Below are positions 62,825-64,000 of a DNA stretch of 64,000 bases, piece by piece (the stretch's first letter is position 1; the number at the start of each line of letters is the position of its first letter). Source of the DNA: Stappia stellulata (GTDB taxonomy: Bacteria; Pseudomonadota; Alphaproteobacteria; Rhizobiales; Stappiaceae); assembly GCF_020176715.1 (NCBI RefSeq), contig NZ_JAIVMF010000001.1, positions 496,001 to 560,000 on the forward strand, read 5' to 3'. The notes beneath the pieces are model-generated. The model saw nothing but the letters and a program-made list of their open reading frames with translations. It was not told where the DNA came from and did no database searches. A program made the position numbers and the translations under genes.

Positions 62825-63826
62825 ATGACAGCAGTTGCCGCCGACACGCCGCCCGTCGAACTCTCCAAGGTCGACATCACCCCCTATCTTGCCGGCAACA
62901 CCGGCATTGAGGGCGTGACGACCTTCGACAGCGGCAAACCCGGTCCGCATGTGGCGATTTCCGCCATCGTGCATGGCAACGAGCTTTGCGGCCCGATCGC
63001 GCTCGACTGGCTGTTCAGGCACGATGTCCGGCCGGTCAGGGGCAAGCTGTCTCTGGTCTTCGTCAATCTCGACGCCTACGCCCGCTTCGATCCGGCCGAC
63101 CCCTTCGCCTCGCGCTGGGCGGATGAGGACATGAACCGGCTGTGGCAGGCGGAAACGCTTGACGACGACGCCACGCTGGAACGGCGGCGGGCCCGCGTGC
63201 TCCGCCCGTTCTTCGACACCGTCGATCTTCTGCTCGATCTCCACTCCATGCAGAACGCGACGCCGCCGCTGATGCTGGCCGGTCCGCTTGCCAAGGGACG
63301 CGATCTCGCCCGAGCCATCGGCGTTCCGGAGCTGGTGGTGAGCGATGCCGGTCATGCGGCCGGCAAGCGGCTGCGCGACTACGCGGAGTTCATCGATCCC
63401 TCGAGCGAGCGAAACGCGCTCTTGGTGGAGTGTGGCCAGCATTGGGAGGCGGAGGCCGCCGATGTCGCCATCGAGACAAGCCTGCGCTTCCTCCATGCGA
63501 CAGCCACGGTCGCGCCGGAGTTCGGCGCGGACTATCTCGCATCGCGTCCGGCCCCCGCGCCCCAGCAGTTCATCGAGATCGCCGCGCCGATCACGATCAC
63601 GACGGACACCTTCCGCTTCACCCAGCGCTTCATCGGCGGCGAGGTGATCGAGCGGGCCGGAACCGTGATCGCCCATGACGGCGGCGTGTCCGTCGCGACG
63701 CCCGAGGACAACATGATGCTGATCATGCCGACGCGCCGTCTCGACAAGGGGCTGACCGCTGTCCGGCTGGGGCGGTTGGTCGACGGCACGCAGGATCCGA
63801 ACCCGGCCCCTCCGCTGACGGCATGA
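62825..63826 (+). CDS. Succinylglutamate desuccinylase/aspartoacylase-family protein
   Basis: The 333-residue protein has the AstE/AspA zinc-site motifs: AISAIVHGNELCGPIAL (HxxE, about residues 47-50), VFVNLDAYARFDP with the RF element, DEDMNRLWQ and LLDLHSMQNATPP with the third zinc ligand. Family members remove succinyl, acetyl or related acyl groups from amino acids (AstE, AspA, DoeB). The substrate here is not determined. It is 53 bases downstream of the ArgE-like gene, likely in one transcript. Its stop codon is followed at once by the trp leader promoter. Length is typical of the bacterial branch. Confidence 0.88.
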   Translation: MTAVAADTPPVELSKVDITPYLAGNTGIEGVTTFDSGKPGPHVAISAIVHGNELCGPIALDWLFRHDVRPVRGKLSLVFVNLDAYARFDPADPFASRWADEDMNRLWQAETLDDDATLERRRARVLRPFFDTVDLLLDLHSMQNATPPLMLAGPLAKGRDLARAIGVPELVVSDAGHAAGKRLRDYAEFIDPSSERNALLVECGQHWEAEAADVAIETSLRFLHATATVAPEFGADYLASRPAPAPQQFIEIAAPITITTDTFRFTQRFIGGEVIERAGTVIAHDGGVSVATPEDNMMLIMPTRRLDKGLTAVRLGRLVDGTQDPNPAPPLTA

Positions 63827-63834
63827 TTTGCACG

Positions 63835-63869
63835 TTGCGCGCGCGCACGCCTTGCGCTACTGAAAACAC
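63835..63869 (+). promoter_or_regulatory. Promoter of the trp leader transcript
   Basis: TTGCGC (63835-63840) and TACTGA (63858-63863) stand 17 bases apart as -35 and -10 boxes. Six further bases place the expected +1 at 63870, the A of the leader ATG. This predicts a leaderless transcript, as described for the trpL leader of Sinorhizobium meliloti. Confidence 0.6.
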
Positions 63870-63920
63870 ATGAGCGACATTCGGATCCTGAACAGCGGCT
63901 GGTGGTGGCGCGCCCTTTAA
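63870..63920 (+). CDS. trpL: trp operon leader peptide
   Basis: The 16-residue ORF MSDIRILNSGWWWRAL ends with TAA at 63918-63920 and has three consecutive TGG codons at 63900-63908. The S. meliloti TrpL peptide is similarly short with three adjacent tryptophans near its end. Stalling at these codons when charged tRNA-Trp is scarce would free the downstream GGCGGC segment to pair with the left terminator arm and let transcription proceed. The regulated gene, presumably trpE(G), lies past the window end. The predicted start of transcription coincides with the ATG. In S. meliloti the released leader RNA and peptide also act in trans; that may hold here but is not shown. Confidence 0.85.
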   Translation: MSDIRILNSGWWWRAL

Positions 63921-64000
63921 AGGCGGCAATCGACAGCGCGTGACCGAACGTCACTTGAAGCAAATCGAAAAGCCGCCGCGGGGTCCCGCCGGCGGCTTTG
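63921..64000 (+). terminator. trp attenuator: antiterminator segment and terminator hairpin
   Basis: AAAGCCGCCG (63969-63978) pairs with CGGCGGCTTT (63990-63999) around a GC-rich inner loop, forming the terminator whose T-run would continue past the window end. GGCGGC (63922-63927), right after the leader stop codon, is complementary to GCCGCC (63972-63977) in the left arm and provides the competing antiterminator. A small GTGAC/GTCAC stem (63940-63954) lies between. The overlap of the two pairings is the attenuation switch. Confidence 0.8.

Follow-up and report, generated by a model that had tools for sequence, protein, structure and literature searches.

The right-hand end of the 64-kb stretch analysed here (the window, which is C1:496001-560000 of a 651,091-base contig of Stappia stellulata) very probably carries, in its last 170 bases, a ribosome-dependent tryptophan attenuator of trpE(G). 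Its parts, their order and the gene they precede were read directly from the DNA, and their conservation was established by comparison with relatives (Table 1). The original prediction placed trpE(G) just past the window edge. The contig could be read beyond position 64000 and the gene was found there, in the same orientation as the leader gene trpL, with its start 133 nt beyond the trpL stop. The encoded protein contains chorismate-binding and glutamine amidotransferase domains and scored 1160.8 bits against TIGR01815 (cut-off 739.15). The prediction therefore withstood its main refuting condition, the lack of a trp gene downstream; trpL is located directly upstream of trpE(G), as is expected of a rhizobial trpL-type leader.

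We infer a switch that would operate as follows. RNA polymerase would initiate on the A of the trpL AUG or on a neighbouring nucleotide, giving a leaderless mRNA, and the ribosome would begin translation at its extreme 5' end. When charged tRNA-Trp is ample, the ribosome would clear the three Trp codons, allowing the 1:2 hairpin and then the 3:4 hairpin to form; the latter would stop transcription near position 64000 and yield a terminated RNA of roughly 130 nt. Under a shortage of Trp-tRNA, the ribosome would stall at codons 11-13 and mask segment 1; segment 2 (GGCGGC) would then take segment 3 (GCCGCC), the terminator would be blocked and trpE(G) would be transcribed.

Table 1. Features of the trpL-trpE(G) locus, in window coordinates.
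Feature	Position	Strand	Basis or remark
-35 element TTGCGC	63835-63840	+	read from sequence
-10 element TACTGA, GC just before	63858-63863	+	read from sequence; ends 6 nt 5' of ATG
trpL, leader peptide MSDIRILNSGWWWRAL	63870-63920	+	translation; 16 codons + TAA
Segment 1:2 hairpin, Trp codons with region 3' of stop	63895-63941	+	predicted
Antiterminator 5' arm GGCGGC, segment 2	63922-63927	+	pairs with 63972-63977 without segment 1
GCCGCC, segment 3, common to antiterminator and terminator	63972-63977	+	sequence, folds
Terminator hairpin, segments 3:4	63969-63999	+	fold, covariation, terminator score
Terminator arms AAAGCCGCCG and CGGCGGCTTT	63969-63978 and 63990-63999	+	read from sequence
Fused trpE(G), anthranilate synthase, 731 residues	ATG at 64054	+ (same orientation as trpL)	TIGR01815

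Two observations concern the surroundings of the leader. Upstream, the + strand between 60651 and 63826 encodes a LysR-type regulator, an acetylornithine deacetylase-like M20 enzyme and a succinylglutamate desuccinylase/aspartoacylase-like protein. Downstream, the trpE(G) frame is open in the 5' direction, through the terminator, to a GTG in the leader region (window 63940-64053, L002:1941-2054), an extension that is probably due to chance in G+C-rich DNA.

trpL, its promoter and their conservation

The predicted 16-codon ORF is present, with its three adjacent TGG codons at 63900-63908, and so is the promoter that had been proposed ahead of it: TTGCGC and TACTGA are separated by 17 nt, and a further 6 nt lead to the A of the trpL ATG. 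In MSDIRILNSGWWWRAL, the locus has the feature typical of the rhizobial trpL type, a short ORF in which Trp codons are adjacent.

To survey relatives, the DNA preceding 150 TrpE homologues, as far as 420 nt from the gene, was searched for an in-frame ATG ORF containing TGGTGG and ending 60-330 nt before the gene. These loci comprised 45 from Stappiaceae, 75 other fused trpE(G) loci assigned to the same order, one less similar locus of that order (L038) and 29 class-level loci, some of the 150 rows being from the same genome or having identical leaders; L037, at a contig end, was not scored. The named loci, being the best 80 among 544 confirmed relatives, are biased towards close ones; for the class-level set, a search of 385 genomes gave 39 others with a strong match, of which 29 were used. 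A leader was found at 133 of the 150 loci (Stappiaceae 45/45, other loci of the order 75/75, L038 0/1, class-level 13/29). Ahead of trpE(G), a leader of the WW or WWW type is present at all 120 order-level fused loci examined, while no WW leader was detected at L038 and at 16 of the 29 class-level loci, for one of which (L126) the upstream sequence covered only 103 nt.

We then scored promoters. A promoter-like pair reached the set score in 128 of the 133 leaders, and the spacer was 17 nt in 122 of these 128, ties having been broken towards 17 nt. Because this threshold was also passed by 28% of the shuffled upstream sequences, only the tight spread of the gap between the -10 element and the ATG was taken as evidence. 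This gap was 6-8 nt in 113 of the 128 promoter-fitting leaders (Stappiaceae 39/45, other loci of the order 66/74, class-level 8/9). At the order level the figure was 105/119, and for this reason a transcription start at or beside the trpL AUG looks to be order-wide, as reported for Sinorhizobium meliloti. We infer that the trpL mRNA of the window would likewise be leaderless, with its +1 at 63870; a promoter geometry conserved over the order speaks for the putative leaderless start of the original prediction.

Removal of 8 identical leaders left 125 unique ones, 112 of them order-level, and 103 of these 112 fitted the promoter with a gap of 5-9 nt. A Shine-Dalgarno-like 4-mer upstream of the ATG was found in only 6 of the 103. 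Apart from the W run and the residues that directly follow it, the leader peptide is variable. Although the residues themselves vary, 8-10 of them stand ahead of the first W in 99 of the 103 leaders, a constancy favoured by the use of promoter fit in choosing among in-frame ATGs. One Stappiaceae genome has two near-identical trp leaders about 2.6 kb apart (L192:502 and L192:3073; G741:C1:5553000-5558700), an arrangement suggestive of tandem duplication of trpL-trpE(G).

The aspartoacylase-like gene ends at 63826, on the same strand and about 140 nt before the hairpin, and it could be argued that the hairpin is only the terminator of this gene and the ORF with three W residues a chance occurrence. 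We consider this highly improbable. A short ATG ORF with TGGTGGTGG occurs once in the 64-kb window, versus a mean of 0.04 in 100 dinucleotide shuffles of the window (4/100 contained one), and a conserved promoter lies between the aspartoacylase-like gene and the leader ORF. The presence of the leader at each of the 120 order-level fused loci is a further argument, and conservation across species already contradicts the idea.

Competing hairpins and the short U-run

The attenuator also predicts that two pairings exclude each other. All arms of these pairings lie where they had been placed, and both alternatives fold in the models, the antiterminator when segment 1 is excluded. The whole leader (63870-64000) folded with a z score of -2.33, 3/200 shuffles being as good. 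The terminator (63969-64000) folded at -23.5 kcal/mol with a z score of -4.13, a value equalled by 0/200 shuffles, and its terminator score of 31.5 was reached by 0/200 shuffles of the 115-nt region (shuffle maximum 7.1). For covariation, we aligned all 36 Stappiaceae rows, and at the order level 42 rows hand-picked for spread, including the window leader, from a pool of 106 (the pool omitted L036, L115 and all class-level rows). In the 36 Stappiaceae leaders, 93.4% of cells in the terminator stem pair, and 6 of the 13 pairs have changed on both sides (24 cells; 0/500 shuffles), versus 1-4 double-changed pairs and 1-5 such cells when the pairing was slid. An intrinsic terminator is therefore predicted between trpL and trpE(G), as in the rhizobial trpL type.

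The competing structures were characterized in the same way. The predicted 1:2 hairpin (fold of 63894-63945) reached -21 kcal/mol with a z score of -0.63, and 49/200 shuffles were as good, so that its stability does not exceed that of shuffled sequence; the Rfam RcsR1 model draws a similar stem. When the Trp codons were excluded (63918-63985), GGCGGC paired with GCCGCC, with a modest gain in stability over shuffles (z -1.70, 11/200 as good). Of the cells of this antiterminator, 91.2% remain paired in the 36 Stappiaceae leaders and 91.7% in the 42 order-level leaders. No antiterminator pair has changed on both sides in the former, and a single one has in the latter (4 cells), a pair count reached by 439/500 shuffles; the pairing being nearly invariant, covariation says little about it. 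The locus is thus predicted to have, like rhizobial trpL-type leaders, an antiterminator and a terminator with one arm in common; the antiterminator is conserved while hardly covarying.

The expectation of trpE(G) and a T-run past position 64000 was borne out for the gene but not for the run, which consists only of TTT (63997-63999) followed by GTC. The stem is thus followed by TTTGTC with a U-run of just three bases (region 63972-64002), and these three bases can themselves pair with AA(A/G) at 63969-63971. Such a tail could mean that the hairpin is no terminator on its own and needs Rho, or that it acts on trpE(G) translation, and the U score of unique leaders is indeed lower in Stappiaceae (median 4.0, n=38) than in the rest of the order (5.3, n=74). 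We regard either possibility as unlikely. The terminator score is far outside the range of the shuffles, and hairpin strength goes up as the U-run falls, with a Spearman coefficient of 0.79 over the 112 unique order-level leaders (0.73 within Stappiaceae, 0.68 outside), a value that is inflated and partly mechanical because longer stems consume Us and the rows are related. Furthermore, TTTGTC or TTTGCC occurs in 12 of the 14 species of the window's genus, and the remaining two (L015 and L016) have six Us with a stem that is similar to that of the window but weaker. In the attenuator, a strong hairpin apparently offsets the three-U tail.

The leader family and Rfam RcsR1

A covariance model was built from the 42-row order-level alignment and used to search whole genomes. 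In the window's own genome, the best match was the trpL site (68.3 bits, E 4.5e-11), followed at a distance by the next one (27.5 bits, E 0.015), a search that is partly circular because the window leader and its relatives built the model. Twelve matches at E <= 1 were obtained in this genome and the two next best were aligned. These sites, C16:32032 and C3:42701, have only a similar hairpin, with no TGGTGGTGG or Trp run, and were for that reason set aside as second trp-type leaders. Of 87 Stappiaceae genomes, 86 gave a match to the model at E <= 0.01; the exception was G032, a fragmented assembly of 980 contigs in which the best TrpE match reaches only 32% identity.

Rfam searched at its curated cut-offs gave no match within the window. 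Below the cut-off, RF02552 (RcsR1) aligned to the window leader at 63892-63999 over its whole length (model positions 1-96). The score was 11.8 bits (E 7.8), short of the gathering score of 60 and slightly below the 12.5 bits of a partial match to the opposite strand, and such a sub-threshold match carries no meaning by itself. We also ran RF02552 on 12 trpE(G) loci. It exceeded the cut-off at 5 of them (L035, L119, L110, L111 and L064), each time at the leader; among the other 7, it matched the leader below the cut-off in 3 (E 0.001, 0.15 and 0.34) and gave no match there in 4. As these loci had been picked for trpE(G), 297 whole genomes of the order were also checked, with stricter filters. 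Four matches exceeded the cut-off (L195, L196, L197 and L211), all just before trpE(G). Of 17 matches at E <= 0.001, 13 were below the cut-off; trpE(G) followed 2 of these and was absent from the 4 kb of sequence inspected for the other 11, so most of the weak matches are probably due to chance. From the four matches over the cut-off in the 297 genomes, RF02552 is the trp attenuator transcript in Rhizobiaceae. RcsR1 has been described as a stress and quorum-sensing RNA (PMC5977203). The curated model misses the window leader, and it misses at least 11 of the 12 Stappiaceae genomes tried, none of which appears among its matches; a broader model would therefore annotate these leaders.

Action in trans and comparison with known systems

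In the window's genome, trpDC is on contig C3, where it is followed by a gene that we take to be moaC, and trpE(G) is on contig C1. With trpDC on another contig, its coordination with trpE(G) would need action in trans. By analogy, the leader might yield, besides the attenuator, a trans-acting RNA (rnTrpL-like) and peptide (peTrpL-like) directed at mRNAs such as trpDC; this would add to the attenuator and not replace it. The architecture is the same as in S. meliloti, for which both activities have been reported (PMC7298713, PMC7143759). We examined duplexes between the leader RNA and trpDC in 19 genomes, in a test that ignored internal structure and used random seeds that were not fixed. The duplex of the window's own genome beat all 20 shuffles, which is in favour of action in trans. 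Just 3 of the 19 genomes, that one included, gave such a result, however, no site was common to all, and the peptide is variable outside the W run and its immediate C-terminal neighbours. Action in trans is a tentative proposal, with the balance of probability against it.

A broader and slightly more doubtful idea is that the design of the leaderless trpL is fixed throughout the order, with the spacing of 5' end, AUG and Trp codons kept while the peptide drifts, and that the trans activities known in Sinorhizobium may be general, Stappiaceae included. If so, each of these species would produce a small coding RNA that is leaderless. As the spacing from promoter to AUG is conserved, leaderless starts can easily be tested in many species.

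The above findings place a known regulator in another bacterial family, the Stappiaceae, and a blind prediction made at the edge of the window was confirmed by the DNA beyond it. Our literature search found no paper on a Stappiaceae trp leader, and we do not claim that none has been printed. For Sinorhizobium, descriptions already exist of the architecture, of the leaderless start and of the trans activities.

In the trp attenuator of Escherichia coli, a leader peptide with adjacent Trp codons is combined with competing hairpins, and both elements are present here. The trpL mRNA of E. coli begins with a 5' UTR containing a ribosome site, in contrast to the leaderless start proposed for the window. 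The E. coli trp genes are also reported to be repressed at high Trp (PMC7298713).

The closest counterpart is trpL of S. meliloti (rnTrpL, peTrpL), for which the published descriptions report a three-Trp ORF before a fused trpE(G), as found here, and mutually exclusive structures, as predicted here (PMC7298713, PMC10117765). Its RNA is reported to start with AUG (PMC7298713, PMC10117765) and to have Ribo-seq coverage over trpL (PMC10117765). The trp genes of that species are described as forming three operons (PMC7298713), with trpDC reported elsewhere in the genome, as here. Its peptide is given as 14 aa (PMC7298713), compared with the 16 aa of MSDIRILNSGWWWRAL. Relative to an Ensifer leader (L119; nT 4.88, -14.6 kcal/mol), the window leader (4.04, -19.4 kcal/mol) has a shorter U-tail and a stronger hairpin. 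Finally, action in trans is reported for S. meliloti trpL, whereas for the window leader it is suggested by analogy with that system.
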